Below, in pieces: positions 16,505-63,351 of a stretch of DNA of 64,000 nucleotides (position 1 is its first letter; every line of letters begins with the position of its first letter). The stretch covers positions 103,624 through 167,623 of the forward strand of contig RPFO01001815.1 of the NCBI GenBank assembly GCA_009746045.1, given 5' to 3'. Source of the DNA: Mesostigma viride. Taxonomy: Eukaryota > Streptophyta > Mesostigmatophyceae > Mesostigmatales > Mesostigmataceae. The position numbers and the translations under genes are program-made. Below the pieces are notes generated by a model. The model saw only the letters and a program-made list of their open reading frames with translations. It was not told the DNA's origin and searched no databases.

Positions 16505-16596
<92 letters not shown>

Positions 16597-31700: not shown

Positions 31701-32572
31701 CCACAGCTCGTTGTCGCACATGGTGGAGCGGCTGAACCGCACGGTGCAAGAGACCATGCGCCATTACACCGACGCGGTGGGTAGTAAGTGGGAGGAACTC
31801 CTGGGGTTGGTGGAATTCTCCTTGAATAATGCCCCCCAGGCTGCTCACGGGTTCACTCCCTTTTTCCTCAACTCCGGCCGACATCCCCTCACGCCGCCCG
31901 ACTTGCTTCTGAGTCCAGAACGTGGTGAGGATCAGGTCAAACGGGATACCCTGCAAGGGGTCGAGCGGCTGCTGCAACAGATGCACCAGGCGCATAACAG
32001 CGCCGTCAAGGGTTATCGAGCAGCGGCAGAACTGTACATGGCAGAACTGTATACATGGCCAGAACAGCAGGGAAGCGGGATGCTCGGGCGCCGCCCATTG
32101 AGGTGGGCGACTGGGTCCTGGTGGAGGGCCCGGCCGCAGATCGGACGGTTTGCTCATAAGGTGGAGAAGGAACTGAAGACTAAGCTCCGTCCCATGTTCT
32201 TGGGCCGCTACAAGGTCCTCGACAAGTTCGACGATGTCATGTTCCAGGTGGACATCCCTGTGTCGTGGAACCTCACGTCCAACCGGTTCCATCGTGACCA
32301 GCTCAAGCTGTCGCACCAGAACACCATCCAGGGCCGAGTTACTAAATCCCCCAGCCCCGCTGGAGTTCAATCCGGACACGGGGGAACAGGAGGACGAGGT
32401 GGCGGAGATCGTGGGGCACCGGGACGTCAAGAAAGGACGTGGGGTCCAACGACAATATCGCGTGCGCTGGAGATTTGCCCAGCATGAGTCAGAGGATTCC
32501 TGGCGCACCGCGACTGAGTTAGCTGGATGCGCACGATTACTAGAAGCGTATAAGAAGACGCACCACCAGTGA
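28769..32572 (+). pseudogene. Ty3/Gypsy chromovirus pol remnant (PR-RT-RH-INT-chromodomain)
   Basis: Plus-strand frames give, in order: the protease tail ADIIIGLDWLDAQDVDI (28795); RT (LLVPKPGGKWRLVTDY 29370, YPLPRIDDIFNRV 29450, AYLDDILVYSRTFEEHL 29780); and RNase H (PIEYISRTMIPAERNYPVHQ 30300, TDHRPLTHILVQPNLTPRQA 30490). The integrase zinc region (GGHQGMHRLL…CPSCQIMK) is at 31232-31350, and a long frame at 31297-32487 holds the integrase core with Asp at 31428 (MMDFIGPF), Asp at 31618 (FISDRDKLF) and Glu at 31725 (MVERLNR). A chromodomain (QYRVRWRFAQHESEDSW) is at 32450-32510 in another frame. Frame breaks near 29248, 29415, 29740, 29955 and 32330, and in-frame stops, show decay. Gag and both LTRs were not found. 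Confidence 0.88.
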
Positions 32573-39558: not shown

Positions 39559-39612
39559 ATGCTGCACCAGAAAGCGTTTGCTAAAAAGACGAAGAAGGGG
39601 CAAGTGCTCAAG
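39559..39612 (+). CDS. DIS3: DIS3 exon 1 (residues 1-18)
   Basis: Starts at ATG ([18 protein letters not shown]), the usual DIS3 start. Donor AAG|gtatcg, phase 0. The intron is only 134 bases, the shortest of the gene. Confidence 0.92.
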
Positions 39613-42600
39613 GTATCGAAATTTTCGCGGCCAGAGTCAGTGGCCAACGTGGTGAAGGCGTGGTGCTGTTGAAATCGTTGATTGTGGAAGTTCCCCACAC
39701 TTACACGCAGCACGGGGTTTTCGCTTTATTTCTATCGACCCTGCAGGTTGTTCGAGAGCATTATCTTCGTGATGACATTTGGTGCGGGTCTGTGCTTTGC
39801 AAAGCCTGCAAACACGAATTGCCAAAGCTAGATGCCGACGCCGGAACATACGTCATTGTGGACACTAATGTGGTCCTTTCACAGGTGAATTAACCAAACC
39901 GAAGAGCTGTAAATGGAGATCGTAGTGCCAACACATGGTCCGAAGGTCATGTTCAACACATTGTCCTTATTTTCATTTATTATTCGTATCGACCCGGTTG
40001 CATAACGTGCACATGCCTGGGTTTGCGGCTCATAATCCAAGACTCATAGTATTAGTAATGGTCGTTCTGTGTTTTTATAAGATTTTCCTCTTGTAAGAAG
40101 TTTTCCTCCACCTTCCGACTTCATATGATATGTGGGACAGTGCTCTGTGTGTACCACGCTCCTATGGCTGCTGCGTTGCTGTGATCCCATGCCCACTGCT
40201 GTGCTGTCCTGTCATGAACGGCGCTTTGCCTGTATGAAACGGCGGCAGAAAATGTCTGTGCACGTGCGTGACGCCTTGAAATATATGGCAGGCTTGTCGT
40301 ATTAGTTAAGCTATTATATGTATTTCAAGGTTATATGCACATGTCAGCCCCCTTCATGGCCACAAAGTCCCTCAGCGGAGCATGCCAGTGCCTGGGATTC
40401 ATCGCCAGCAAAATTTCCCCTGTGGTGATGGCATGGACAGGTCGCTCTATTGCCTGTGGGGTGCTACGCCACTCTGTGTTTGGGAACAATACTACAATGG
40501 ACGAGGTATTGCTGCTGCAACACAGTTGAATTCGTTGAATTCTGTAATTTATTCAAAGTAAATGCTTTTGTTGGTTGCTTATTTGCCCCGCTCTGTCACT
40601 GCCAAGGACCCTACGTGCCCGACGTAAGTCATTGGGTTGACAGAGGCAGGCCATGGATCTCCCCCAAAGTCTGGCTGTGTTGTGACACGGATGGTCCAAT
40701 GAAGCTGGCAATGTCACTCATCGTGCCCTGCCCTGTGCCCCTCCCCTTGGATCGAGAAAATATTGTGCCATGTCCCTCTCTGCCGGGCACCCGGTTGCTG
40801 ACAAGGCCACCTTCTGCCCCGCGCACCTCCTCGGCCTTGTGCCCCTCCCCTGCCCGCTGTGGTGTCTGCAACCCAACCTCACAATGTTTCTTTTGTTCCT
40901 TGCTTGTTGCCCCCCCCCCCCCCCCCCAGCTGGACCTGCTTGAGAATGTGGCCGTGGACAACGTGGTCGTCCCCTCCGTGGTGATGGAGGAGGTGCGCCA
41001 CAAGGACCTGGCCTCATACAACCGCGTGCGCAACCTGGTGGCCAACGACAGCAGGCACTTCTTCGTCTTCTCCAACGAGCACCACCGGTGAGGCGGCGGC
41101 ACGTAGCTATGCGCGCGCCACAGGTTGCTGCTTGTCCAGGCTCTGTGTGTGGCCATGGGCGCCCGAGTGGCGTCCACCTTTAAATCTCTATGGGACAGGA
41201 GAGATAGTGGCATATTTTAAGAAGGTGGTGTCAGCTCTCATTGGTTCAGCTAGCTGTGTTGCCACCATGTGAACGGCAACCGCCTGCCCAAGTGCTGCGT
41301 GCCTTGCAGCTTCGATATAAGGCGTCATGCCGTTGGTAGCTGAGTGGCCGGCCTCTGGCAGCGAACGGAACGGGCTCGTGGGACCGGCAGCAGTGGGTGC
41401 GTTGTATGGATGTGATAGCGCTGGATGATGTCGAGATGCATTTAGCTGTACTCGTTCAACTGTTAACAAGTTCATGTTTTCAAAAGACTTCTCGTTCTTT
41501 TACCATCAATCACAGGCCTAGCATCCTCCCCCTGCGTCAACCTGCTGGTTGCCTTGGTCTCGACGTTGCCTTGTCTTCAAACTTGCTGCCGGATGGATGG
41601 ATGGCCTGATGGATGGATGGATGGATGGATGGGTGGCCAAATGGATGGATGGCCAAATGGGTGGATGGCTGCTTGGAAGAGCAAGCGGCCCGGATACACG
41701 GATCTGTGAGGCTCTTTTCACGAGTCTCAGAGGCTTTGCCTCGCTGAAAGCCACGCTCCTGCCATACCCAAGCGATGCATGGCGCTGTATATAAATCCAG
41801 TGTATCTGCCCCTTGGTATGACTGGGTTTCTTCATGGTTGAAAGGACGGGCTTGCCAGCCTGCGGTTCAGAGCAGCCTTCGGCTCTCCTGGGCGGTGAAA
41901 CGACGCGTGATTGGGTTCCACGTGTTGTTGTCCTGCTGGCGCCCAGGGGCACGTACATCAAAGTGATTGGGTTCCACGTGTTGTTGTCCTGCTGGCGCGC
42001 AGGGGCACGTACATCAAAGTGATTGGGTTCCACGTGTTGTTGTCCTGCTGGCGCGCAGGGACACGTACATCAAAGCGCTTCCGGGGGAGTCGCCCAACGA
42101 CCGCAACGACCGAGGTGGGGCGCCGCGTGGGGTGTCTCGTGGTGTAGCCAGATGGTCAGTTGACCAGTGGTGCAGATGGTGGGTCTGTCGGGGGGTACGT
42201 TTGTAAGGACTCGTGTGTAGGACGCATCGTGACCGCCTTTGAGTTTGGCGTGTTTTAAAATGGTGGCTGCTTTGTGACGACACAAGAATTGCTGGAGTGC
42301 AAGAAATGGAAGCGGCAACAACGTGGGCTGGGGCAGAGCACAGCAGGGGCATGGGTTGCCCTGGGAAAAAGACAGAGAGGAATACGAGGGTGCCTTGGGA
42401 AAGGCTCGTGTTTCTTTGCTGTGGAATCCTCCGAGGTTCTTGAAAGTAATAATCTTGGTGGATGTGGGCGCCTAGTTTGCATCGTGTTCCTGTTGGCTGC
42501 AACAGCGGGGCCAGGCATCGTGGTTTGTGGAGGAAACATCACAAGCCACTTGTCATGCCCATAAATATGCATGTAATATGCAAGTAATTGCTCTCTCCCC

Positions 42601-45600: not shown

Positions 45601-48600
45601 CTGTCGTCCAAACATGGACCATTCCTGGCCTTTGACATTCAGATTCTGAATGCCCTCATCAAGATCTATCAATTGCACAACTAAAACTTTTGTTTGGACC
45701 CCCGAACGTCCTACTTGGACTGTCTGGGCTTTGGCCCATTTGATGCTAAGGACCCAGCTTACAGCCATTTTCACTTGTCTTGTTGGCCTACTATCGCTTA
45801 ACTGAAAACGGACTTTCCAGTATCTAAGGTATGATCCAGGATCCTCTCGGGGAGATCTGTCGATTGCGCTACTCAAAATAAAAATCGAACTTGATTTTTG
45901 AGCCCCAGTCTACGATAGTAGACCGGTTTCCCGCCAACTGTTTCAATTGTTGTTCTCCAAAGCAGCAGCGTTTCCTTGTCCTCCTTTTGTCCTTGGTTCA
46001 TGACATCTTTTGGTTTCACCCTGCTCGGTACCCTGCAGTGGGGCGGTATGTGGAGGAGAACCTGTCCGCCGTGCCAGAACTATTGGACATTGTGGCGGCC
46101 GGGCGCGAGAGGGAGGACGCCAAGGATGGGGACGGAGACGCCGAGGGAGGCAGTGGCCGGACCAGCAAGCGCCGCTGTATTTATGAGGAGGTAGGCAAGC
46201 GCCGCTGTATTTATGAGGTAGGCAAGCGCCGCTGTATTGATGAGGCAGGCAAGCGCCGCTGTATTTATGAGGAGGTAGGCAAGCGCCGCTGTATTTATGA
46301 GGAGGTAGGCAAGCGCCGCTGTGTTTATGAGGAGGTAGGGGAGGAGAGGGGTGTTGTGGGTAGCTATGGCCTGGGTCGCTAAGCAGCCGAATGATGCGGC
46401 GAGTGTCAGACACCGCCAGGTCATGCTCCAAGCTGACACTTCAAATATTTATATTTTCTGTGCACTTTACTGGCCCTGTAAGGGTGTATCAGGCAGCGGC
46501 ATCCCCCCGCAATGGCGGGACTCTCGGGATACGTATCGCGCCATTGCGCCTCAAGGTCCCGCACGCTCGGTTTGTCTTGACCTCCAGGGTTGTCGGAGCA
46601 AAGCCCCAGGCATGATCCTGTGGCCAGCACCCGCCACGCGCCCTGTGGCCACCCTAAGCAAAGCACCCCCCTTTCCGTTGTGCCGTGCACGCACGAGTTG
46701 TTTGCCAAGGTCACGCCCGCTAGGGTCAGCGCATTGTCATGGGGCATCGCAGGCGTTTACGCAGCCATGAGCTGCATGTGCCACCATGAACCAGTGGCTC
46801 AGTGCAAGGTGGCCTCCTGTGCCCCCTCGCTGGTCGCGTACTCTGTTCCTGTAATCTCTTCCTGCACTCTATTCCGGTGTCCATGGGCCCCCTCAACACC
46901 AGAGCGACCGGACCCCTCGATGTCTCCGTATGTTCTTCATTTTGCGCTGCGGACCACTGTCCTGCTTGTGCACATTCGTGTGGGTATGCTTATGTGAGTA
47001 TGTGTATGCGTGTGTGCGTGTGTCCGTCCTCTTTTCGTGTATCTGTGTGTGTGTCCTCGTGTGTGTCGTCCGCCAGCACAAGCACGCCAGTGAGATCACA
47101 CTGGGCCTCAAGAGCGGCCGCTTCTTCCAGGGACCCCTGCGTGTGAGCCAGTTCAACCCATTTGAGGGATACGTGTCGGCGCTCGAAGGCGGCGAGGACA
47201 TCTACATTGGTGGCGCGGTGCACATGAACCGGGCGATGGATGACGACATTGTGGCGGTGGAGCTGCTGCCTGAGGACCAATGGCATGCGGGCAGCCGGCG
47301 CATCGTCGAAGGTGGGTGGGCGATGCCTTGTCTCTGAGAAGCTTGTCCTGTGACCACAGGCTGGGTGGCCGATGTTTGCTCGCAGTCTGCATGGAGAAGC
47401 TTGACCTGTGTTCACAGGCTGGGTGGCCGATATTTGCTCGCCGTCTGCATGGAGAAGCTTGTCCTGTGACCACAGGCTGGGTGGCCGATGTTTGCTCGCA
47501 GTCTGCGTGGAGAAGCTTGTCCTGTGACGACAAGCTGGGTGGCCGATGTTTGCTCGCCGTCTGCAAGGAGAAGCTTGTCCTGTGACCACAGGCTGGGTGG
47601 CCGATGTTTGCTCGCAGTCCGCGCGGAGAAGCTTGTCCTACGACGACAAGCTGGGTGGCCGATGTTTGCTCGCCGTCTGCAAGGAGAAGCTTGTCCTGTG
47701 ACGACAGGCTGGGTGGCCGATGTTTGCGCGCAGTCTGCATGGAGAAGCTTATCCTGTGACGACAGGCTGGGTGGCCGATGTTTGCTCGCCGTCTGCATGG
47801 ATAAGCTTGTCCTGTGACCACAGGCTGGGTGGCCGATGTTTGCTCGCAGTCTGCATGGAGAAGCTTGTCCTGTGACGACAGGCTGGGTGGCCGATGTTTG
47901 CGCGCAGTCTGCACTGGCATTTTTCCAGCGCACGGGCTGGATGGTCAGTGGCCCGTATTTGCTGGCATCCCTGCCCGCACCCACAGAACAGGACAGTGGC
48001 CATGTCAACCTGTTGATGGTGTTTACTTGTACTGCTCCCTGTACCGTTCAGTGCTATTCTCAGTACTCCGCACTTCACGCCTTCCAACTCACTCACCTGC
48101 TTGTCTGGCATGGCACTGCTCCCACGCACCACACCCCAAGCACGGTACCCAGGCAATGAGTCGGACGAGGACGGCAAGGAGGGCGATGAGGGTGAGGGGG
48201 AGGTGCTGGAGGCAAGCGTGAAGCCGTCCTTCTGCCCCGAGCCGGAGCCGCTGCCACACGTCACGGGGACGGGGAAGGGGGGGGACAAGCGCGTGTCGGG
48301 CAAGGTGGTCGGCATCATCCAGCGCAAGTCGTGGCGACCGTGAGTGTTAAGAGTTAAACGGTACAAGTGCGTGCGACAGTGAGTGGGAGTGTCTGTTGCT
48401 GGCAACCGTAGCTGTAAGAAGTCTTCTGTTCGAGGTTCTGGCGACCGTAGCCGTAAGAAGTCTTCTGTTCGATGTTTTGGCGACCGTAGCTGTTAGAAGT
48501 CTTCTGTTTTAGGTTCTGGCGACCGTAGCTGTAAGAAGTCTTCTGTTCGAGGTTCTGGCGACCGTAGCTGTTAGGTGTCTTCTGTTCGAGGTTTTGGCGA

Positions 48601-51600: not shown

Positions 51601-54600
51601 TGCGGAAAAATGTTTATCCTGTGTGGCTCCCCTGGCGCCCCGCATGATGGCCGATGCCCACGCCGGTTGGGAGCACGGCGTCATCTCGGATGGTGTTGTT
51701 TTGAACAATGGGTTCGCCGGCTCCATCCTGCCTTCTTTATCACCTACGCGAATGCAATGAATTGGTCGACCCACGCCTCTGGCTGGACAGACATTGCGGA
51801 TGTCACGAGTTTTGTCAAGCCAGGGACCGCGCTGGACAAGGAGGCGGCCAAGAGGGGCACGTCGGTCTACCTGGTGGAGCGGAGGATTGACATGCTGCCT
51901 AGCGCGCTTACCACGGGTGAGGGGAAGCTCTAATGCTGGTCGCTTCACTACCCCGTCTATTCTATTCTTGTACACGATGGATGCTCTAAGCATGTGTTGT
52001 GTACTAAGCTCTTGATTGATGAGAAGAAATCTTTTTTTTTTCTCTTTGCGGGCATGCGCCTGGATGCAGCGTGCCATGCACTATTTTGTAATCTTGAATA
52101 ATTGTTTGATTACAGCTGCGGCGTTGCTGCACTTGCCGGGCTACCAGTCACTAGCCCATGCAATGCTGCGATGATTGCCGCATGCTGCTGCGATAATTGC
52201 CGCATGCTGCTGCGATGATTGCCGCATGCTGCTGCGATGATTGCCGCATGCTGCTGCGATGATTGCCGCACGCTTCTGCGATGATTGCCCCATGCTGCTG
52301 CGATGGTTGCCCCTTGCTGCTGCAATGATTGCCCCTTACTGCTACGCTGACAAGGGTGCCACTCCCATACAACCAGGGCACTGCGTACACGAGTACATCG
52401 CTGATGTGCTGCCATGACCTTGCTGGCGCCTGCCTGGCTGCTTGCGTGCAGAGATTTGCTCTCTCAACGAACAAGTCGACCGCTTTGCCCTCTCTGTGAT
52501 TTGGGTGAGTGCGATGGCTTTTAACGTTTATGTATGGGTGAGTACAATGACATCTATTTATGGGTGTGTGCCACGGCTTTTAACATTTATATATGGGTGA
52601 CTGCGATGGTTTCTTGTTCGATGCACAATATCAGGATTAACTTTTAAGGCACATAGTGTTGTGTCCTTGTCAGGGGGGCGTGGAGCACAAACTCCCATGT
52701 CTGCAGTGTCAAGCGGATGCTTCGTACCCAGAAGCGAGAGCCAGGCTAGTATGTGATGGGCCCCATAAGCTCGGCGAGAGATGGGCACACCCACACACGC
52801 ACACGCACATGCACATGCGGCTACTTAGGGCTGTGGCAGTTAGTTGAAATAGTGCCGGAACCTTTTGCCACCTGCGGCAAACCGGTCCAGAACACTATTT
52901 ACTTAACTAATGCGGCCGAATTAGTTTGGGTGCTCGGAAGTGGTTATTCCGGGCAAAATAGTGTTCCGGACCGGTTTGCCGCAGGTGGCAAAAGGTTCCG
53001 GCACTATTTCAACTAACTGTGGCTACGCAACAACCAGGCCTCTTTGCAGCTCGCGCCCACCCACCCTCGCTGCCTAAGGATGTAACATAGTCCAGGTCCT
53101 CATGACTGGCCCAGGCCGTTAAGACTGGTGGAGTGATGCTCTGGCCCTTGTTGTGTGCCCTAGTTAGCCCTTGTTGTGTGTGCCCTAGTTAGCCCTTGTT
53201 GTGTGCCCTAGTACGGCCTTGTGTGCCCTAGTTAGCCCTTGTTGTATGCCCTAGTTAGCCCTTGTTGTGTGCCCTAGTTAGCCCTTGTTGTGTGCCCTAG
53301 TACGACCTTGTTGTATGCCCTAGTACGGCCTTGTTGTGTGCCCTAGTTAGATCTTGTTGTGTGCCCTAGATAGCCCTTGTTGTGTGCCCTAGTTACCCCT
53401 TGTTGTGTGCCCTAGTACGGCCTTGTGTGCCCTAGTTAGCCCTTGTTGTATGCCCTAGTTAGCCCTTGTTGTGTGCCCTAGTTACCCCTTGTTGTGTGCC
53501 CTAGTTAGATCTTGTTGTGTGCCCTAGATAGCCCTTGTTGTGTGCCCTAGTTACCCCTTGTTGTGTGCCCTAGTACGGCCTTGTGTGCCCTAGTTAGCCC
53601 TTGTTGTATGCCCTAGTTAGCCCTTGTTGTGTGCCCTAGTTAGCCCTTGTTGTGTGCCCTAGTTAGCCCTTGTTGTGTGCCCTAGGTAGACCTTGTTATG
53701 TGCCCTAGTTAGACCTTGTTGTGTGCCCTAGTACGGCCTTGTTGTGTGCCCTAGTTAGCCCTTGTTGTGTGCCCTAGTATGGCCTTGTTGTGCGCCCTAG
53801 TTAGCCCTTGTTGTGTGCCCTAGGTAGACCTTGTTGTGTGCCCTACTTAGCCCTTGTTGTGTGCCCTAGTTAGCCCTTGTTGTGTGCCCTAGGTAGACCT
53901 TGTTGTGTGCCCTAGTACGGCCTTGTTGTGTGCCCTAGTTAGCCCTTGTTGTGTGCCCTAGTTAGCCCTTGTTGTGTGCCCTAGTTAGACCTTGTTGTGT
54001 GCCCTAGTACGGCCTTGTTGTGTGCCCTAGTTACCCCTTGTTGTGTGCCCTAGTTACCCCTTGTTGTGTGCCCTAGTTAGCCCTTGTTGTGTGCCCTAGT
54101 TACCCCTTGTTGTGTGCCCTAGTTAGATCTTGTTGTGTGCCCTAGTTAGCCCTTGTTGTGTGCCCTAGTTACCCCTTGTTGTGTGCCCTAGTACGGCCTT
54201 GTTGTGTGCCCTAGTACGACCTTGTTGTGTGCCCTAGTTAGCCCTTGCTGCGTGCCCTAGTTAGCCCTTGTTGTGTGCCCTAGGTAGACCTTGTTATGTG
54301 CCCTAGTTAGACCTTGTTGTGTGCCCTAGGTAGACCTTGTTGTGTGCCCTAGTACGGCCTTGTGTGCCCTAGTTAGCCCTTGTTGTGTGCCCTAGTTAGC
54401 CCTTGTTGGGTGCCCTTGTTAGACCTTGTTGTGTGCCCTAGTTAGATCTTGTTGTGTGCCCTAGTACGGCCTTGTTGTGCGCCCTAGTTAGTCCAGGATA
54501 CGGATGGGTGCCGTTACATATTACCAAATAAGTGGGAAGGCCCACGTCAAGGCCACAGCCAACCTAAGAACCTAAGGGCACCCATCAGCATCGTAGTCTA

Positions 54601-57600
54601 GCTAGGCCATACAAACAAGGGCCGGAGCATCAGTCCACCAGTCTTGGGGACCTGGGCCAGTGATGAGGACCTGGACTTTGTAACACCCTCAGGCACCGAG
54701 GGTGGGTGGGTGCGAGCTGCAAAGAGGGCTGGTTGTTGCGCAGCCACAGCGCTAAGTAGCCACCGACTTGGGGTGGCGCGCGCCAGCCCACTGTCCAACA
54801 GGCCAGTGGCACCGCACCACCCCTGTTCCACAGTACCACGCCCGGTTCACATTACCCCCCCTCACTGCCAGTTGGACCTGCCTACTGCGGCCGCCCCTCC
54901 GCCTTTGAAAATTCCGCAAGTCAGATAGAACAAGCACGAGCTCACAAAGTACATGTAGACACACGCACACGCGCACACACACACACACACGCATAGGCAC
55001 ACGCACATGCACACGTAGATGTGCCTATGTGTGTGAAAAGTTGGAGGGCAGAGTACGACATTATGTGACAGAAGAGGGGCCTGCTTTTGCTGGATTGAGT
55101 TGTTGGTTATGAAGTATCGTTGTTTAAGAAATATTCAATTGATATCCACCAACATTATCAAATAATGTGGTGTTGGATGTAGATGTAAAGGTGCATTTAA
55201 TCATCGTGATTGGGATGTTCCTTGCGTACCCACCATGCCTCTCCATGCATGGCTGCGCCTCACTCTGTTGCCGCATGTGATTACACGCAGCTAACCGCTC
55301 GGCATGCGCCTTGCCTTGCCTCCTGCCACCTGTTGCATGAGACCACACATGGCTCAACCATTGCATGGTAGTGACCCTTGATGTTAGGTTAGGTATGTGT
55401 TTGCTGCGACTGCCGTGCCTCCTCTTCCTATTGCAAGAGGTCACGCGTGGTAAGAACCTTATGCATGCTCCACTCCTTTCCTCCACCAGTTATTGCATGA
55501 CATTGCGCGTGGCTTAACCCCTATGCATCTGTGGTGCATCATTTCGCTTCCCTGCCCCTTGTTGCAGGAGATCACGGAGGATGCGCACATCGTCTCGACA
55601 GACTTCACGCGCAGCCTCATCCGCTCACGCCACTCCTTCTCGTACCTAGAGGCGCAGACGCGTATGGATGACAGGTGGGGACGAATGGCCAGGCCATTCG
55701 TCCCATTGCTCCACCCCGCCCCACCCCACCAACCAACCAACCAACCAACCAACCAACCAACCATCCAACCAACCAACCAACCAACCAACCAACCAACCAA
55801 CCAACCAACCAACCAACCAACCAACCAACCAACCAACCAACCAACCAACCAACCAACCAACCCACCGACCGACCGACCGACCGACCGACCGACCGACCGA
55901 CCGACCGACCGACCGACCGACCGACCGACCGACCGACCGACCGACCGACCGACCAACCAACCAACCAACCAACCAACCCCCCACCCCCACCCACCCCCAC
56001 CCCCCACCCCCCCACCCCCCACCCCCACCCCCCCACCCCCCACCCCCCACCCCCCACCCCCCACCCCCCCCCCACCCCCACCCCCACCCCACCCCACCCC
56101 CCCCACCCACCCACCCACCCACCCACCCACCCACCCACCTACCTCACCGCTGCTCCCTTTTCCCCATTTCTTACCTCCCTTTCCTTCCCCTCTTCTCCCC
56201 TCCCCTTTACCCCCTTGCTACTCCCCTGCTTCTCGTTCCCCTGTTTTCTCCTATGTCCCCCTGTCCCCTCCTTCGCTGCTCGCATCCTTGTTGGGTCAGT
56301 ATTTTCTACGCCACATGCCTGGCCTTGCATGCATTCTAATAGGCCAGTTGCAAAACCTTTTCATGCCTTGCGCACAGGCAGCTTTAGTGCCAATGCACGT
56401 TGTCACTGGCTCTCATCACCTGCTTATGGGAACTGCAAGAGCCACTGTCTTGCCTGCATATGGTACCACCCATCACATCTGCCTGGCTGAATCAAATTTG
56501 GCCTACGCTAGCCAGGATCTGTTTGTCCCTTATGGTTGCCTCACTCGTTCCTGGTTGTGTGGCAAACACCCCACTGTTTGCCTGCCATGGGCACCACCAT
56601 CACCACCATGCCCTGCAATCTGGCATTCCCTTCCCCAACCCTGCCTCTGCCACCCACCAGCCGTGTCGATGACGAGGTGACGGTGGCGCTGCGCGATCTG
56701 AACAAACTCGCCAAGGTGAGCGGCAATCGCCAATTTAACGCGTTCCAAGGCCGTTGTCTTTAAATGCTCTTCCCCCTACTTTTCCTTGCACATTCCCATA
56801 TGATCAGATAAGACGAGATCCTGCGTGACTGCAAGTGCGACTATAGCAAAGGGAGGCCTACTGACCCTAGCCTGGGTCTAGGGGCTTTAGGTCTCATGAG
56901 CGTAATTCTAGATACTACAGTACTTGTGGCGATGCTGATGCCTATCATTACCCTGCGCTATTGGCATCGTGTGAGCAGCATCATGGGCTGGTTGGCATTG
57001 AACTAGCCTTTCAAACACCGCTTACTGCTTAGCACCCCAGGCATTTCTCCCAAGCATCTCTTGTTCCCCCCCGCTTACTCCCTTCCCCCCCGGGCCACAA
57101 GCCCTACGCCTCGCACCAAGTCTGTAGCTAGCATCACACCCATGTCCCACTCTGTCAGTAGCCACATGGCACCCATGTTATAATGTGCTTCAGCTTCCGT
57201 GCTGCAGCAACCACTACGCGTACATTCAACCACCCCATATGCTTCAAATCCCATTGTTGCCGCATTCTCAGGCAGAGGCTTGATAGGCACGTATCAATCA
57301 CATCCCTCCCCACATCAACACTCACTAATGGGTCCTCTCGCCGAGCTGCATCCATATTCCTTGTCGGCAAGGCCACGTGGCATCTCCTTGCCCTGTTGCA
57401 CTGCATGTGTGCGGATTATGCACGTGTTGGGATGTTTGCACACATGTGGGCTATGCCGTGGCTACCTGCTGCACCGGTCTCTGCTCAGCTGAAGCTGACA
57501 GACAACACCGCCGGCCCCTGCTCAGGCAGCCGCACTTGTGCCCTACGTATGTCCCAGTGCCTTCTGACGCGTGTTGATTTAATGGATCACCACCCTCAGT

Positions 57601-60600
57601 GATGAGGTCAGCGTGCATGACCTCATGCGGCACGTCTCCTCTGTGACGGCTTACGTTGTACGCGCATGTGTGGTCCTGGCGTCATGGCATAGCAGTTAGC
57701 AAAGTGCATCCTGTCGTGCGCGTGTCATGGCCTACGGCTTTGCGTGCCGACGGTAGATTTAGTTCTGCCGCTTGGCGTGTGCGTGCTTCTTTCCCACACC
57801 GCCCACCTGTCCGCATCTGCCAGATCACGGGTGTCCCTTCATGTTTGTCCCTTCTGCATCCGCCTGCCTGTGCCGTCGCGTGTCGTCTGCCAGATCATGC
57901 GGCAGCGGCGCATTGACCGCGGCGCGCTCACACTGGCATCCGCCGAGGTCAAGTTCACGCTTGACACCGAGACGCTCGACCCGACCGACGTGGGTGCGTG
58001 GGAACAAGGGCACAGTACTGACTAGTTGTCCACCCATGTGGGTGCGTGGGAATAAGGGCACAGTACTGACTAGTTGTCCACCCATGTGGGTGCGTGGGAA
58101 TAAGGGCACAGTACTGACTAGTTGTCCACCCATGTGGGTGCGTGGGAATAAGGGCACAGTACTGACTAGTTGTCCACCCATGTGGGTGCGTGGGAATAAG
58201 GGCACAGTACTGACTAGTTGTCCACCCATGCGGGTGCGTGGGAATAAGGGCACAGTACTGACTAGTTGTCCACCCATGTGGGTGCGTGGGAATAAGGGCA
58301 CAGTACTGACTAGTTGTCCACCCATGTGGGTGCGTGGGAATAAGGGCACAGTACTGACTAGTTGTCCACCCATGTGGGTGCGTGGGAATAAGGGCACAGT
58401 ACTGACTAGTTGTCCACCCATGTGGGTGCGTGGGAATAAGGGCACAGTACTGACTAGTTGTCCACCCATGTGGGTGCGTGGGAATAAGGGCACAGTACTG
58501 ACTAGTTGTCCACCCATGTGGGTGCGTTGACGCATGGGGGTATCGTGTCCGCTAGTATGTGGTCACCCAGTGCACTTGGACGCTTGACCCGACTGACATG
58601 GGTGCGTGGTGGCATGTTGATTCAAAGGTTTTGCTTGGCACCGGCGTGGGTGTGTGGTTCTTTGCCCACAAGCGGGAGTTGAGATCATGTTTTGTATTTA
58701 TCATAGCAGCCACGTTGTCACCACTGCCTGTCAGGAACGTGACAAGGGGGAGGGGGATTTTTCATGCAGCTCGTTACCTACAGCGTATTGTTGGGCCCGT
58801 TGTGTTCGGGGATATTTTCTTCCGGTAGTAAGGGCGTATTGGTTGGCGTATGGTAGTAAGCGCCTATTTGTTCGAGAAATCCCCCCAAGGCGCCTCTCAG
58901 CTCATGCTGCTGCTGACTATGTGTTCCCTGCCGTTTCGATTCCTCACCCCCCCTCCCTCCCTCCCTCCTTCCCCATCCACTCGGGTTGTATGCACCCACA
59001 TCTGTATCGTGGGCACACGCACCGTCCCCTTTTCCCCACTGCAGGCATGTACAAGGTGCGCGAGTCCAACCAGATGATCGAGGAGTACATGCTGCTTGCA
59101 AACGTCACCGTCGCCGACAAGATCTTCGCCACCTTCCCACAGTGCGCGATGCTTCGGTGAGGCGTTGAATAAACCAGAGGAGGCCATGAGGGCTGACATG
59201 TGCTGTGATTTCTTACTCGCAAGAAAGGACATGGTGGAGTGCCACCTGGGTCCTCAGGCCTGGAAGCCTTCCTTGGTGTTGCACAGCCGCACCGTCTGCA
59301 TTTCATGCGTTTGGTATAGGCCACCGTTCTTGGTTGGAGAAGCAAAGTTACCTGCATTTGGCAAGGGGGCAAAGTGTGAGGGCTTGGACTCTGGGTTTGG
59401 AGAGGTCTATGCCAGCGGTTGGCTGAAGCCTTCAGAAGTATTAATACCTTCTGTTGCTCCTGCCAATGGTGTTTTACGCGTCATGTCATCCCGCTTGCCA
59501 AAACATGATCTGGACAGTCATGGGCCTGAGATAAGTTTGCCCCAACAAGGGTAATGGCCACTTGACGATGCCCCAACAAGGGTAATGGCCACGTGATGAT
59601 GCCCCAACAAGGGTAATGGCCACGTGATGATGCCCCAACAAGGGTAATGGTCACGTGATGATGCCCCAACAAGGGTAATGGTCACGTGATGATGCCCCAA
59701 CAAGGGTAATGGCCACGTGATGATGCCCCAACGGATGGCCACGTGATGATGCCCCAACAAGGGTAATGGCCACGTGATGATGCCCCAACAAGGGTAATGG
59801 CCACGTGATGATGCCCCAACAGATGGCCACGTGATGATGCCCCAACAGATGGCCACGTGATGATGCCCTGAATGCTGATGTGTTGCTGCACATTCCATCT
59901 AGCTTCTTGTTGCGTGTGCTGGTGCTCTCATGTTGTATGAATCGTATGACCGTGCTTTACTTCCATCCCATCACCAAAACTGGCGCCCTCCCCATCCTTA
60001 ATGCTTACTTTCCCTTGGCCACCTGTGTTCTCGGATTGGCATATCCCCCCAGGCGTCACCCCGAGCCGACGCCCAACATGTTCAAGCCACTGCACAAGGT
60101 GGCCAACGCGGTCGGCATCACATTGCAGACGGAGAGCTCCAAGGCCCTGGCCGACTCGCTAGACCGCGCGGTGGTAGGTCGCCGGCTCAGGGGAGGGTGT
60201 GGTGTGATGCCCCCTTAGCGTAGCCGCCTAGGGGACCCGGGCTCCTACCACCCACGCATGCCCCTTCTTGCTGGGTATCTAGGAGACCAGGGTGGATGTC
60301 ATTCTGCTCGCTCTTTTTTGTGGGGGTGCAGAAACTGGATTAGAGAATTTTCTTTCGGGAATATTTTTAACATCTTGAATGAATGACTTGCGGCCTGGGC
60401 TGCCTGCTATGTAATATGATTAACTAATGCTGAAAAGCCAACTCTGCCAGTGTTGGCAAGCGACTCCCCTGCCTAGAAGCTTCCGGTGTCCATTCGCCTA
60501 CCACTCTACACCACGTAATTGCGTTTTCCTTCCCATGCTGGTGGGAGCCAAAAATATGGCCCTGCTGCTTGTCAACCAGCAGTGCAGGTGTCTGTACATG

Positions 60601-63351
60601 ACCCGTTACCTCTAGGTGTAACTAGCAAGTCGTCGTGGCTGACATTCGTTGATGGTAGTGTTTTTCTCATGACAACCATATCCCGTTATGATACGTGGTT
60701 GCCTGCTGCCACCCACTCCCGGCTGCGCTGACCTCTTTGCTGCCGCCCGTACGTGCTGCCGCCTGCTCGTGTCGTGGTCCGGCTGCTCTTGTCCCTGTGT
60801 CTTCTTTCTCTCTGCCTCCCCTCCCCCCCCAAAAAAAGCTGGGTGACGGCAACGACGGCTACTTCAACAAGCTGCTCCGCATCCTGGCCACGCGATGCAT
60901 GACGCAGGTGGGCGGAGTTTGCATACTGTAGCCTGGATACATGGCGCACTGTACGTAATTTATCCTAGTACGGTGCTGCATCATGCAGGTGGGCGCAGTG
61001 CGCACTTTTTTTGCACTTGACGCGGTATTTGCCTGCTAGCGTGCACATTCATGGCGTAGGTGGGTACAGCAGGCGCGGTGTTGTGCACTTGCCGCAGTAG
61101 TTTTATCGCGGAGTGGGGCAAAAATGCAGCAGCAGGGCCTGTTCATTGTGGGTTGCGACGTTCTTTTGTATGGGAGGTAAAGCCTGACGCCTCAAAAGCC
61201 CACACCAGCCCTGCCATTAATTACACTGTCCCTTCTTTGGCTTACCCAAACAACCAAATAACCAAACAACCGCCCCCCCTTACACACACACACACACTGC
61301 CCCACCCCCACCCCCACCCCCCCACCCCCACCCATCCACCCAGCTGCCCACCCACCTGTCCACCCACCCACCCACCCACCCACCCCCCACCCACCCACCC
61401 ACCCACCCACCCCCCCACCCACCCACCCACCCACCCACCCACCCACCCACCCACCCACCCACCCACCCACCCACCCACCCACCCACCCACCCACCCACCC
61501 ACCCACCCACCCACCCACCCCCACCCACCCACCCACCCACCCACCCACCCACCCACCCACCCACAGGCCAAGTACATCTGCAGCGGTGACTTCACGGAAA
61601 AGGAGTTCTGGCACTACGGCCTTGCGGCGCCCCGCTACACGCACTTCACGTCGCCCATTCGGCGATACGCGGGTGAGCAAACGCAGCCCACCCGCGTATT
61701 ATTCACCTGTACATCCGCGTCTATATGTACATTGCTATCCCACGTGGTTGATGTGTGGGAGAAACCGCAGGCTGTGTCCTGCGGTTCATGAAGGCAACGG
61801 GGGATCCGCCGCGCTGGCAACGCTGTGCGTGGGTCTTTCCTTCCCAACGCAATGTCAGGGGTGCGTTCACTATCGTCCGCCGCTCAACTCACACAGGAAA
61901 AACCCGTCCTCTGTTGTCCGATACCTGGACCCAGGTGCCCCCAACGGAATGCTTTGGATCCCTCCCTGAGGCCATGACCGCGTGTTGGGCACGCCTGTGT
62001 GTGGCGGCTTCTCCAGCCGCATGTTGTCCCCTGCCCCAAACATCACGTCCATGTGGCATATCTTATTTTTGTCGACATGTCGTACTGACACACGGTGCCG
62101 CGCTTGTGGCCGGCCTCACAGCAATGGCGCACATTTGTTTCCCCATTTTCATGTTCAGCAGTTGTAGCAGGCAGCATGGCCTGTCACTGGCAGCTTGCAC
62201 CTTGTTTCTCGTCAGTCTTGTTGCGGCTCCCTGACTTGGCACGAGCTAGTTTGCCAGTCTGCAGCTTGCCACCATGCTGATGCTGTGCACTGACATAGTT
62301 CCTCCCCGTGTCACTGGCTCCTGTCATCAGGCACTGTTGGGAGGCTTCCGTGCCTACGAAGGTGTCAAATGACCCCGTTGCTTGCTGGCACGTCACTGGA
62401 CGCTAGCCGCAGTTGTACCTGTCATCGCCTCTTGGTCTACCTTGGTTGCCAACGCTCATGGTGTTTTTTTTTTTTTGTCGTTGCGATGTCCTCGGCTGGA
62501 TGATGTCCTCAGCTGGCTGATGTCCCCTCCCCCCCGCACATGCTCCCCATTTGCCTTTCTGCTCCGCGAATCTGCACTACCCCTTGGGCCGCCTGCATTT
62601 GTCCCCCCTCCTGCCGCAGACGTGGTGGTCCACCGCCTGCTTGCTGCCGCCATCGGGATCGACCGGCTATACGAGAAGCTCTTCGAGAAGGCGTTCGTCA
62701 AGGAGCTGGCGGACGGTGGGTGGTGGTGCACTGAGCGCTGTCATCATGTGGGTCGTAGTGGGATGGTTGGAGCTGGCGGACGGTGGGTGGTGGTGCACTG
62801 AGCGCTGTCATCATGTGGGTCGTGGTGGGATGGTTGGAGCTGGCGGACGTTGAGTGGTGGTGCACTGAGCGCTGTCATCATGTGGGTCGTGGTGGGATGG
62901 TTGGAGCTGGCCGACGGTGGGTGGTGGTGCACTGAACTGGTCTAATGACAGACCGACATAGCCGTTGCTATCATGTTTCATGTTAAGCCCTGGTCATGAT
63001 GTACTACGCACATGCGCCGGCGGCCTGCTTGAGCTCATGTGCCCAGCGTGTGGGATGACAAGCCTTGCATCAGGACCTGCATACGAGGGAGAGCGCTGCT
63101 GTCGCCTGGCGAAAGAGTCGAGCGTTAGCCAACCATTGTCTGCGGGGCTGAATGCAGGTCTGGCTTGATCTTGTTGCAACCTGCCATGTGTTTACGCGTC
63201 GAGATCACCCATGAACCAGTGAATCGTCCAACGGTCTTGTGGCTGTTTGCCCTCCACCCCTGCTCGCAGAGTGCAACGTGCGGCACCACAACGCGCAGGT
63301 AGCGGGGCGGTCCTCGGTGGAGCTGCACACGCTCATCTACTTCCGCAACAG
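39559..63351 (+). CDS. DIS3: DIS3/RRP44, catalytic ribonuclease of the RNA exosome (21 exons, 3' end outside window)
   Basis: Exons: 39559-39612, 39747-39884, 40930-41087, 42059-42114, 42918-43043, 46039-46190, 47077-47311, 48153-48339, 49870-50119, 50944-51169, 51791-51916, 52452-52504, 55568-55674, 56661-56715, 57894-57993, 59045-59156, 60053-60173, 60839-60907, 61567-61672, 62620-62715, 63270-63351. They sum to 2,609 bases and join in one frame at GT-AG sites: 869 residues of a family near 950. The order is: N-terminal [12 protein letters not shown]3 (C-x4-C-x2-C, residues about 31-39); PIN endonuclease with Asp of VDTN, Glu of MEEVR and Asp of TND (about 55-160); cold-shock region (about 230-450); and RNB exonuclease (from about 480). 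RNB has the metal-binding [13 protein letters not shown] and the signature [21 protein letters not shown] across exons 19-20. The protein degrades RNA 3'-5' and cuts it internally as part of the nuclear and cytoplasmic exosome. The rest of RNB and the S1 domain lie beyond 64000. All identifications are from conserved motifs and frame continuity; no transcript was seen. Confidence 0.96.
39747..39884 (+). CDS. DIS3: DIS3 exon 2 (residues 19-64): CR3 motif and PIN start
   Basis: Acceptor ctgcag|GTT, donor CAG|gtgaat, phase 0 at both ends. Encodes [14 protein letters not shown], the three-Cys CR3 motif (CGSVLCKAC) and the PIN strand VIVDTNVVL with its first catalytic Asp. Confidence 0.95.
40930..41087 (+). 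CDS. DIS3: DIS3 exon 3 (residues 65-116): PIN
   Basis: Acceptor is a 17-base C run then AG. Donor ACCG|gtgagg, phase 2. Contains [26 protein letters not shown] with the catalytic Glu, and FVFSNEHH. Confidence 0.95.
41591..41670. repeat. (ATGG)n tract in DIS3 intron 3
   Basis: Imperfect GGAT/GGCC tetranucleotide repeat of about 80 bp. Confidence 0.85.
41907..42074 (+). repeat. 56-bp x3 tandem repeat carrying the exon 4 acceptor
   Basis: Three copies start at 41907, 41963 and 42019. Each ends GGCGC(C/G)CAG|GG(C/A)ACGTACATCAAA, so each has the acceptor and first codons of exon 4. Only the last copy leads into the conserved exon. Confidence 0.92.
42059..42114 (+). CDS. DIS3: DIS3 exon 4 (residues 117-135): PIN
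   Basis: A 56-base exon found by phase and motif: [18 protein letters not shown]. Acceptor gcgcgcag|G, donor CGAG|gtgggg. Two upstream near-copies of its acceptor and first 16 bases exist (41951, 42007). Only this copy continues into the conserved [10 protein letters not shown]. Confidence 0.93.
42918..43043 (+). CDS. DIS3: DIS3 exon 5 (residues 136-177): PIN
   Basis: Acceptor ggcggcag|CC gives the conserved [19 protein letters not shown] join. An in-frame upstream extension beginning at the ATG at 42878 is open but not conserved and is rejected. Contains [14 protein letters not shown] with the third PIN Asp. Donor CCG|gtatgt. Confidence 0.92.
43477..45295. mobile_element. hAT-type element in DIS3 intron 5, 8-bp target duplication
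   Basis: The ends are CTGTGTTTTTGCTAAGG (left) and CAGTGTTTTTGCTAACGG (right, reverse complement). They are flanked by identical GCCGGCAC at 43469-43476 and 45296-45303. An 8-bp duplication with CA/TG-type ends is diagnostic of hAT. Subterminal regions are packed with CCGCGGTCR motifs in both orientations, as expected of transposase-binding arrays. A Ser/Arg-rich minus frame (44272-43916) has no transposase motif, so it is probably non-autonomous. Confidence 0.85.
44705..44993. mobile_element. 289-bp MITE nested in the hAT element, TA target
   Basis: Inverted ends CACCCCTAGTCCCACGTTTA and CACCCCTAGCTCCACGTTTA are flanked by TA (44703-44704, 44994-44995). The motif GTTTAAGAT recurs through the body. 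TA duplication suggests a Tc1/mariner-type parent. Confidence 0.75.
45504..45947. mobile_element. 444-bp MITE with 26-bp inverted ends in DIS3 intron 5
   Basis: ATTGAAACTGTTGGCGGGAA at the left is matched by ATTGAAACAGTTGGCGGGAA on the opposite strand at the right, both continuing ACCGGT. It lies about 90 bases before exon 6. Target duplication not resolved. Confidence 0.7.
46039..46190 (+). CDS. DIS3: DIS3 exon 6 (residues 178-228)
   Basis: Acceptor ctgcag|TG. Encodes [17 protein letters not shown], then an acidic low-complexity linker and SKRRCIYEE. The first GAGGAG|gtaggc (46191) gives the length expected for the family. Four further in-frame donor copies follow downstream. Confidence 0.88.
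46165..46336 (+). repeat. 27/30-bp x6 tandem repeat carrying the exon 6 donor
   Basis: Copies of GCAAGCGCCGCTGTATTTAT… start at 46165, 46195, 46222, 46249, 46279 and 46309. All spacings are multiples of three. Five copies end in a GAG|GTAG donor; one has GCAG instead. The frame stays open through all of them. Confidence 0.92.
46979..47066. repeat. TG-rich tract before DIS3 exon 7
   Basis: Imperfect TGTGTG repeat in the 3' part of intron 6, just before the acceptor at 47076. Confidence 0.6.
47077..47311 (+). CDS. DIS3: DIS3 exon 7 (residues 229-306): cold-shock domain
   Basis: Acceptor ccgccag|CAC, donor GAAG|gtgggt, phase 0 to 1. Contains [39 protein letters not shown] and LLPEDQW, the typical first OB-fold region. 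Confidence 0.95.
47312..47914. repeat. 58-bp x10 minisatellite in DIS3 intron 7, starting at the donor
   Basis: Unit GCTGGGTGGCCGATGTTTGC… with GAGAAGCTTGTCCTGTGAC. The exon 7 donor itself (GGTGGGTGGGCGATGCCTTG…GAGAAGCTTGTCC) is a diverged first copy. Alternating CGCAG/CGCCG and CCACAGG/CGACAGG variants give a two-type pattern. Confidence 0.9.
48153..48339 (+). CDS. DIS3: DIS3 exon 8 (residues 307-368)
   Basis: Acceptor acccag|GC. An acidic insert ([16 protein letters not shown]) is followed by [14 protein letters not shown], the start of the second cold-shock region. Donor GACC|gtgagt, phase 2. Confidence 0.94.
48395..49360. repeat. 39-bp x about 24 minisatellite in DIS3 intron 8
   Basis: Unit GTTCTGGCGACCGTAGCTGT…GTCTTCTGTTCGAG. 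The TGGCGACC|GT core copies the exon 8 end and donor (GTGGCGACC|GTGAGTGTTAAGAG). The last unit, CTGGCGATCGTGAGTGTCAG, is closest to it. Because 39 is a multiple of three, long false reading frames run through it. Confidence 0.92.
49688..49870 (+). repeat. Three copies of the exon 9 acceptor
   Basis: GCAG|GTTCTG(T/C)GG occurs with exon-like starts at 49691, 49778 and 49870, 87 and 92 bases apart, each followed by a CATC-CCC stretch. Only the third continues into exon 9. Confidence 0.85.
49870..50119 (+). CDS. DIS3: DIS3 exon 9 (residues 369-452): second cold-shock region
   Basis: Acceptor ctgcag|G (third of three similar acceptors). Contains [41 protein letters not shown] and [10 protein letters not shown]. 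Donor CAG|gtaagc. Confidence 0.95.
50944..51169 (+). CDS. DIS3: DIS3 exon 10 (residues 453-527): RNB entry and active site
   Basis: Acceptor ccgcag|GTG. Contains [12 protein letters not shown], then [19 protein letters not shown] with the RNB metal-binding aspartates. The donor used is GTCC|gtatcc at 51170, because it gives EIGV-HIADV with the next exon. An earlier GT at 51164 breaks the motif. Confidence 0.95.
51292..51392. repeat. 27-bp x about 3.7 repeat in DIS3 intron 10
   Basis: Unit GCGTGTGCATGTGCGCTGTA + TTTGCCT, shortly after the exon 10 donor. Confidence 0.85.
51791..51916 (+). CDS. DIS3: DIS3 exon 11 (residues 528-569): RNB
   Basis: Acceptor ggacag|AC. Contains [35 protein letters not shown]. 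Donor CGG|gtgagg. Confidence 0.95.
52160..52345. repeat. 22-bp repeat in DIS3 intron 11
   Basis: About eight copies of GCTGCGATGATTGCCGCATGCT-type units. It lies about 100 bases before exon 12. Confidence 0.85.
52452..52504 (+). CDS. DIS3: DIS3 exon 12 (residues 570-587): RNB
   Basis: A 53-base exon. Acceptor gtgcag|AG gives [18 protein letters not shown]. Donor TGG|gtgagt, phase 0. Confidence 0.93.
52837..53019. mobile_element. 183-bp hairpin MITE in DIS3 intron 12
   Basis: CAGTTAGTTGAAATAGTGCC starts inverted arms of about 65 bases that pair almost perfectly with the other end (…GGCACTATTTCAACTAACTG). Flanks are TGG on both sides, a possible 3-bp duplication. A short unrelated loop lies between the arms. 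Confidence 0.8.
53143..54492. repeat. 23-bp x about 58 satellite in DIS3 intron 12
   Basis: Unit GCCCTAGTTAGCCCTTGTTG + TGT with variant second halves (ACGGCC, AGACC, AGATC, ACCCC). Variant order repeats in blocks (for example 53210-53390 and 53405-53580), so larger segments were duplicated too. Confidence 0.93.
54957..55018. repeat. (CA)n tract in DIS3 intron 12
   Basis: Imperfect CA repeat of about 60 bp, on the plus strand. Confidence 0.85.
55568..55674 (+). CDS. DIS3: DIS3 exon 13 (residues 588-622): RNB
   Basis: Acceptor ttgcag|GAG. Contains [20 protein letters not shown] and [12 protein letters not shown]. Donor ACAG|gtgggg, phase 2. Confidence 0.95.
55727..56138. repeat. C-rich tetranucleotide mosaic in DIS3 intron 13
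   Basis: Successive blocks of (CCAA)n, (CCGA)n, (CCAA)n, C5-6A runs and (CCCA)n, about 410 bp, with all C on the plus (transcribed RNA) strand. It starts about 50 bases after the exon 13 donor. Confidence 0.95.
56661..56715 (+). CDS. DIS3: DIS3 exon 14 (residues 623-641): RNB
   Basis: Acceptor caccag|C. Encodes [18 protein letters not shown]. Donor AAG|gtgagc, phase 0. Confidence 0.93.
57814..57900 (+). repeat. Duplicated exon 15 acceptor
   Basis: CTGCCAG|ATCA occurs at 57824 and at the real exon start 57894, 70 bases apart, with GTCCC/CGTCG-type tracts before both. Confidence 0.6.
57894..57993 (+). CDS. DIS3: DIS3 exon 15 (residues 642-674): RNB
   Basis: Acceptor tgccag|ATC. Contains [20 protein letters not shown] and TETLDPTDV. 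The donor GTGG|gtgcgt (57994) is chosen because it restores [10 protein letters not shown] with exon 16; a GT four bases earlier breaks the frame. Confidence 0.94.
57990..58610. repeat. 48-bp x11 minisatellite starting at the exon 15 donor
   Basis: Each unit begins GTGG|GTGCGTGGGAATAAGG, the donor of exon 15, and ends CCACCCAT. The array runs to about 58527. A further copy of the exon end plus donor (CTTGACCCGACTGACATGG|GTGCGTGG) lies at 58583-58610. Confidence 0.93.
59045..59156 (+). CDS. DIS3: DIS3 exon 16 (residues 675-711): RNB
   Basis: Acceptor ctgcag|GC. Contains [20 protein letters not shown] and [17 protein letters not shown]. Donor TTCG|gtgagg, phase 2. Confidence 0.95.
59545..59870. 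repeat. 31-bp x about 11 repeat in DIS3 intron 16
   Basis: Unit GCCCCAACAAGGGTAATGGC + CACGTGATGAT, with 26-bp short forms lacking AGGGTA. It is not linked to a splice site. Confidence 0.9.
60053..60173 (+). CDS. DIS3: DIS3 exon 17 (residues 712-752): RNB
   Basis: Acceptor ccccag|G. Contains [20 protein letters not shown] and [13 protein letters not shown]. Donor GTG|gtaggt; a GT three bases earlier would only drop one Val. Confidence 0.93.
60839..60907 (+). CDS. DIS3: DIS3 exon 18 (residues 753-775): RNB
   Basis: The acceptor is unusual: eight C, seven A, then G (CCCCCCCCAAAAAAAG|CTG). Encodes [17 protein letters not shown]. Donor CAG|gtgggc, phase 0. Confidence 0.94.
60897..61070 (+). repeat. 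Three copies of the exon 18 end and donor
   Basis: GCATGACGCAG|GTGGGCGGAGT (60897), GCATCATGCAG|GTGGGCGCAGT (about 60979) and TCATGGCGTAG|GTGGGTACAGC (about 61049). Confidence 0.75.
61262..61565. repeat. (CCCA)n tract abutting the exon 19 acceptor
   Basis: About 300 bp of CA and CCCA repeats run straight into CCCACAG|GCC. The repeat thus supplies the pyrimidine-rich side of the acceptor. Confidence 0.95.
61567..61672 (+). CDS. DIS3: DIS3 exon 19 (residues 776-810): RNB signature
   Basis: Acceptor cccacag|GCC directly after a (CCCA)n tract. Contains [20 protein letters not shown], most of the RNase II/R signature. Donor GCGG|gtgagc. Confidence 0.96.
62620..62715 (+). CDS. DIS3: DIS3 exon 20 (residues 811-842): RNB
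   Basis: Acceptor ccgcag|AC completes the signature (…[13 protein letters not shown]). Ends KAFVKELAD. Donor GACG|gtgggt, the first of four tandem copies. Confidence 0.95.
62703..62935 (+). repeat. 67-bp x about 3.5 tandem copies of exon 20 end and donor
   Basis: GAGCTGGCGGACG|GTGGGTGG starts at 62703, 62770, 62837 and 62904. The third and fourth copies are mutated (ACGTTGAG; GCCGACGG). Each unit holds 13 exon bases plus about 54 intron bases. Confidence 0.93.
63270..63351 (+). CDS. DIS3: DIS3 exon 21 (residues 843-869): RNB C-terminal part
   Basis: Acceptor ctcgcag|AG. Encodes [16 protein letters not shown] and LHTLIYFRN. Donor ACAG|gtgtgc, phase 2. Later exons are outside the window; 63352-64000 is intron with no further exon recognised. 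Confidence 0.93.

Follow-up and report, generated by a model that had tools for sequence, protein, structure and literature searches.

Tandem copies of exon-intron borders in DIS3/RRP44 and six other genes of the streptophyte alga Mesostigma viride

The window, a 64,000-nucleotide stretch of contig C502 (103624-167623) from the 440 Mb assembly of Mesostigma viride, a deep-branching streptophyte alga, contains the first 21 exons of a DIS3/RRP44 gene on its plus strand. When spliced, these exons give a stop-free frame of 869 codons with GT or AG at all 41 splice sites, and the best solved relative of this frame is the RRP44 of entry 6d6q (809.7 bits over query residues 1-868), which we take to be the human protein; exons 22 and 23 were located past the window, in the adjoining stretch. 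A protein search showed that the public Mesostigma viride model jgi/Mesvir1/9288, whose prefix 'Mesvir' presumably denotes this species, starts exactly with the DIS3 translation minus exon 2, and the 41 splice sites mapped in the initial annotation agree with that model except at the two introns flanking exon 2. This exon (39747-39884, 46 residues) is absent from Mesvir1/9288, yet the solved RRP44 aligns across it, and its absence reflects either a skipped exon or an annotation slip. Upstream, three of ten frames scanned in the first 39 kb of the window are retrotransposon frames and seven have no Pfam match; a stop-free frame of 1622 codons on the minus strand (12467-17335) and frames on the plus strand (30259-32484) belong to retrotransposons that we take to be of Copia and Gypsy type, respectively. 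An Rfam search of the window returned no matches at gathering scores. The gene and its repeats are arranged as follows.

39559..63351, plus strand, DIS3/RRP44 exons 1-21; the gene continues to exon 23 beyond the window
41907..42080, plus strand, exon 4 acceptor array, three units of 56 bp with 22 exonic bases
46165..46339, plus strand, exon 6 donor array, six units of 27-30 bp
47336..47917, plus strand, intron 7 array, 10 copies of a 58-bp unit, beginning 24 bp into intron 7
48395..49368, plus strand, intron 8 array, 24 copies of a 39-bp unit, beginning 55 bp into intron 8
49686..49896, plus strand, exon 9 acceptor, three copies including the real one (49686-49719, 49757-49799, 49849-49896)
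50107..50271, plus strand, exon 9 donor region with diverged copies, weak (p = 0.05 with 100 shuffles, p = 0.03 with 500)
52499..52612, plus strand, exon 12 donor, 3.5 units of 33 bp (p = 0.002), absent from the list in the initial annotation
52819..54761, no strand, inverted-repeat element in intron 12, enclosing a 23-bp array at 53144-54491; not derived from a splice junction
55305..55575, plus strand, exon 13 acceptor, diverged copies at 55305-55346 and 55405-55439, real site in 55551-55575
57971..58609, plus strand, exon 15 donor, 48-bp array of 11 copies plus a far copy
60896..61004, plus strand, exon 18 donor and copy (60896-60923, 60977-61004), with a third copy downstream by eye
62702..62935, plus strand, exon 20 donor array, 3.5 units of 67 bp with 14 exonic bases

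Each of the 41 DIS3 junctions was compared with its own neighbourhood in an all-site test with 100 shuffles, and nine gave a best match score of at least 15 at p ≤ 0.01. A directed test, in which 20 exonic and 20 intronic bases were matched to the adjoining intron against 500 Markov shuffles (p values uncorrected), covered 12 DIS3 junctions, namely the ten that had initially been claimed as tandemly copied and two from the all-site test. Eight of the ten were upheld at p < 0.05, whereas the exon 7 donor (p = 0.054) and the exon 15 acceptor (p = 0.22) fell short. The acceptors of exons 4 and 9 and the donors of exons 6, 15, 18 and 20 were equalled in 0 of 500 shuffles each, as was the exon 13 acceptor, where two diverged copies were detected besides the real site and which the initial list lacked; the p = 0.03 of the exon 9 donor would fail correction for 12 tests. 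The gene model uses the last of the exon 4 acceptor copies (42058/42059), the last two exon 9 acceptor copies lie 92 bp apart, and a distant copy of the exon 15 edge with its donor is found at 58579-58609. The donor of exon 22, past the window, is also duplicated. For the exon 8 donor (p = 0.008) the best match is one nearby copy at 48364-48385, outside the 24-copy array, and its link to that array is a common TGGCGACCGT core, judged by eye. The intron 7 array resembles the exon 7 donor weakly, its units by eye having CT versus the GT of the donor, and we did not accept it as a set of exon 7 donor copies at the p value given above. The supposed pair of exon 15 acceptors, a 12-base match, was likewise rejected. 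Long ACCA/ACCG/CCCA tetranucleotide tracts were observed at 55711-56148 and 61300-61564, the latter reaching the exon 19 acceptor, for which it may act as the pyrimidine-rich tract.

The wider sample comprised 95 introns, all GT-AG, from seven genes including DIS3. This sample is not random: the genes came from an RNB search and from one stretch around the locus of that search, with the genes other than DIS3 taken from 200 kb of contig C1967 and from stretches of C1668 and C1457. Gene models were obtained by retrieving the alga's public proteins with two chimeric queries and aligning them exactly to the DNA. The six other genes are labelled CMT (DNA methylase and chromodomain), RNR and SOV (RNB), WW (WW domain), PSY (squalene/phytoene synthase) and Mesvir1/20351 (without a domain); RNB apart, these are the names that we take the precomputed Pfam accessions of the genes to carry. 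Left out as gene models were P0124 and P0125, which are transposon-like with many partial matches, matches from other species, the last, spurious fragment of P0143, and the C1457 stretches, which yielded just two RNB-gene exons and no protein. Intron 1 of CMT entered the sample after the first tests. Low-complexity windows were removed from the intron and exon points used for per-base rates (35 of 1010 intron points in DIS3). Large arrays cover many bases and may each represent one origin, and therefore families of duplications were also counted; in the null for these events each family was shifted uniformly within its own intron, an overlap of 25 or 40 bases with the exon being permitted, over 20,000 shifts.

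Duplicated junctions are not confined to DIS3, as each of the six other modelled genes has at least one. Examples are intron 4 of RNR, where the donor is followed by five more donor-like copies at a spacing of about 96 bp, and intron 6 of PSY, which by eye has four acceptor copies. The initial view that this is a recurrent process and not one element was also sustained, since repeat offsets vary from 25 to 118 bp and nearly all units tested are private to their loci. Of 89 arrays searched in 361 kb of Mesostigma DNA, 77 gave matches, 75 of them at their own locus only; the other two match a second locus, and neither lies at a junction. The exon 15 unit, the one unit searched against the whole assembly (very common words skipped), matches its own locus only, and the junction units contain the exon edge of their own gene. 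A mobile element, introner-like or minisatellite-carrying, that inserts at splice sites is therefore very improbable: the privacy of the units (75 of 77 arrays, and the exon 15 unit assembly-wide) speaks against it, as do junction arrays that match only their own locus where searched and carry the gene's own exon edge, although one array, in intron 12, does lie in an inverted-repeat element and two arrays away from junctions do match a second locus. The copies seemed to extend no more than 28 bases into the exon (P = 5e-6), but we rejected this limit: by eye, a diverged copy at the intron 4 donor of Mesvir1/20351 takes in about 37 exonic bases, and strict arrays alone give P = 0.01 and 0.09.

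The statement that splice junctions seed the intron minisatellites proved true of some arrays but too broad, given that 77 of the 96 duplication families in the seven genes span no junction. Within the window, DIS3 has 25 duplication families, eight of them junction-spanning; the exon 12 donor is included in this count and narrowly fails the 5-base rule of the 95-intron event test. The largest DIS3 array, with its 23-bp unit repeated over 1.35 kb, sits inside the inverted-repeat element of intron 12, away from splice sites. A 98% palindrome (52837-53019) is set into the left end of that element.

Whether duplication is biased towards exon-intron borders, as had been proposed for this lineage, depends on the unit of counting: the bias was found per event over the whole sample, but neither per base nor in the last-added genes alone. 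In DIS3, a local copy score of at least 15 was reached at 9 of 41 junctions versus 263 of 975 intron points and 4 of 206 exon points. Over five genes, duplication was found at 16 of 70 donors (23%), 4 of 70 acceptors (6%) and 1134 of 3545 points in the intron interior (32%), with exon interiors at 3%. These per-base rates favour an alternative without any bias, in which introns abound in local duplications, junctions are hit like any intron base, border copies are tolerated since the outer site works, and exon copies are purged by selection; the last-added genes, which are near expectation for donors, favour it too. Counted as events, however, the families tell against it. At a score of 17 the 95 introns hold 96 families, versus nine in shuffled introns with none at junctions. 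Donors are spanned by 13 of the 96 families where 2.6 or 3.9 are expected (equalled in 0 and 2 of 20,000 shifts; p ≤ 0.0001), and acceptors by six where 2.6 or 4.0 are expected (p = 0.05 and 0.20). Without DIS3, the donor count is 8 of 73 versus 2.0 or 3.0 (p = 0.0006 and 0.0099) and the acceptor count 3 of 73 versus 2.0 or 3.0, which is not significant. At this cut-off the observed donor counts are 3.3 to 5 times those expected for the full gene set and 2.7 to 4 times when DIS3 is left out. With stricter cut-offs, donor-spanning families over all genes number 10 of 76 (2.2-3.4 expected) at 20 and 10 of 59 (1.8-2.8 expected) at 23, with p ≤ 0.0015; without DIS3 the count at 20 is 6 of 58 versus 1.6 or 2.5 (p = 0.006 and 0.037), weaker under the looser null.

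The density of family boundaries also argues against unbiased copying, as family starts are densest at the exon edge: 6.7 per kb at -27 to -5 of the donor, 2.4-2.5 at -5 to +60 and 0.5-1.0 deeper. Family ends occur at 2.4 per kb in the stretch 5-27 bases past the acceptor, 1.8-2.5 per kb in the last 60 intron bases and 0.7-1.2 per kb more than 60 bases inside the intron from the acceptor. We regard the absence of any bias as possible but on balance doubtful. The last-added genes, which were added once the donor hypothesis existed and contribute 25 introns and 31 families, have two donor-spanning families versus 0.9-1.3 expected and three acceptor-spanning families versus 0.85-1.3 expected (p 0.05-0.14); at cut-offs of 20 and 23 none of their families spans a donor (0 of 22 and 0 of 17, with 0.5-1.0 expected). 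This lack of a donor excess leaves the size and the donor preference of the border excess unsettled. A donor-over-acceptor asymmetry, seen in the first five genes both per base (the 16 of 70 versus 4 of 70 above) and among 65 families (11 versus 3), faded over the 95 introns to 14 of 95 versus 6 of 95 (p ~0.1, not significant) and was dropped. When the exon windows were widened, copies were seen at 20 of the 190 junctions, about a tenth (14 donors, 6 acceptors). In the genes sampled, border duplication is commoner than random copying predicts, most clearly at donors, by an amount that is uncertain.

Duplication might instead track the donor motif and not the splice site, the G-rich, GTGGGTG-like sequence being prone to slippage. 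The donor consensus in the sample is CAG/GTGAGTG and many real donors read GTGGGTG, in keeping with such an effect, as is the G-richness of the sense strand at intron starts. Cryptic donors of equal strength, however, are less often duplicated (8 families versus 133 single copies, real donors 11/72; p = 0.02), and in families that span no donor, donor-like motifs are as frequent as chance predicts (5 of 54 versus 4.99 expected, first five genes). Both results speak against the motif alone as the cause and acceptor copies also occur, and we consider this explanation unlikely. On the sense strand, intron starts are rich in G and intron ends in C, also outside repeats (70 introns of DIS3, CMT, RNR, WW and SOV).

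The further proposal that these duplications expand introns and leave decoy sites was borne out in so far as the arrays lie within introns and 11 of 13 donor arrays contain at least one further donor-like site, a putative decoy. In the exon 6 array such sites lie at +27, +84, +114 and +144, all four in frame, and the first stop is at +189. The copies being in frame and stop-free for 189 bases, use of a decoy would therefore add in-frame residues. Three more arrays (CMT intron 10, WW intron 7 and SOV intron 7) have at least one in-frame donor-like copy before a stop, bringing these to 4 of 13 donor arrays. Such arrays could be taken to mean that extra donor copies are selected, for example as additional U1-binding sites that aid long introns or as a source of protein length variants. 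The other 9 of 13 donor arrays, however, have no in-frame copy before a stop, and the exon 6 edge occurs just once in the public DIS3 protein, which fits use of the outer site; selection for the copies thus appears quite improbable. We note that the exon 6 array, taken as 46165-46379, could itself serve as a protein length variant.

Taking together the copies, their positions, their private units and their excess over uniform placement, we favour, at a probability of roughly 0.7, a reading in which recurrent local tandem duplication with minisatellite growth, over-represented at intron ends, would have built these arrays while the outermost site stayed in use. A short segment straddling the border would be duplicated in tandem in the DNA (offset about 25-118 bp), presumably by slippage or template switching and independently at many junctions. 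In the gene models the outermost authentic site, that is, the first donor copy or the last acceptor copy, stays in use, and the added copies would therefore become intron and be spliced out. Through repeat turnover, some duplicates would then expand into intronic minisatellites. The added copies would be nearly neutral except for the danger that a decoy is spliced, the decoys being presumably left unused. The excess at intron ends would be due to a local duplication bias there, which the G-rich and then C-rich strand bias of intron ends might favour. A bolder version, which we put forward tentatively and think rather less than probable, is a mutation process focused on exon-intron borders and tied to transcription or splicing, for example through R-loops at the G-rich intron start. 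Such a process would copy border DNA at several times the rate of the remaining intron and would contribute to the growth of introns across the genome. A possible duplication hot spot at borders is the part of this work most worth following.

The original report of a 'mirage' in amphioxus Adh is said to be that of Canestro in 2002. The amphioxus papers apply the name mirages to minisatellite-like arrays in which 5' or 3' exon-intron borders are repeated in tandem, in Adh3, globin BflGb6 and BflGb9, TnC and PGBD5, with units of 10-72 bp in Adh3 and 150-160 bp in the globins, and report them not to disturb splicing (PMC3087553; PMC3902484). The Mesostigma repeats agree with mirages in being tandem copies that include the exon edge and the splice signal, in occurring at both 5' and 3' borders, in unit lengths that vary between loci (25-118 bp here) and in having many units with AG/GT signals; by this anatomy they are the same kind of structure, a kind already known. 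They differ in belonging to a green alga and not a chordate, and in being counted here over 95 introns in seven genes and known from DNA alone. The birth of introns from a tandemly duplicated segment that carries AGGT was reportedly described by Rogers, Gao and Lynch. Such an intron gain is described for potato RdRp (PMC4974935). There, as in Mesostigma, a tandem duplication carries splice signals, but the duplicate gives birth to a new intron, whereas the Mesostigma copies lie within one intron of the gene model. With introner elements, which place related sequences at many loci, the Mesostigma arrays have in common a recurrent, lineage-specific effect on introns; unlike introners, the units tested are private, with related sequences at many loci found neither in the 361 kb nor, for the exon 15 unit, assembly-wide.

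The Mesostigma genome paper gives long introns (mean 1142 bp) with a repetitive content of 30.1%, and those of its passages that answer to our search terms hold nothing on exon-intron borders (PMC6947507). Among the matches listed for Mesostigma, the literature consists of organelle, nucleomorph and genome papers, none by title on nuclear splice-junction repeats. Duplication across borders has been proposed as one origin of new introns and of decoy splice sites, and earlier accounts of border-spanning repeats, as far as found, concern a small number of genes in amphioxus. A deep-branching streptophyte in which about one in ten sampled junctions carries copies would offer a natural test bed for the way decoys are passed over, for the growth of introns and for the question whether mutation is concentrated at splice sites.

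One region containing an RNB-domain gene is present as 3.1-kb copies of 99.6-99.8% identity on contigs C1668, C1245 and C1088, and these copies are either unmerged haplotypes or recent duplicates in the assembly.
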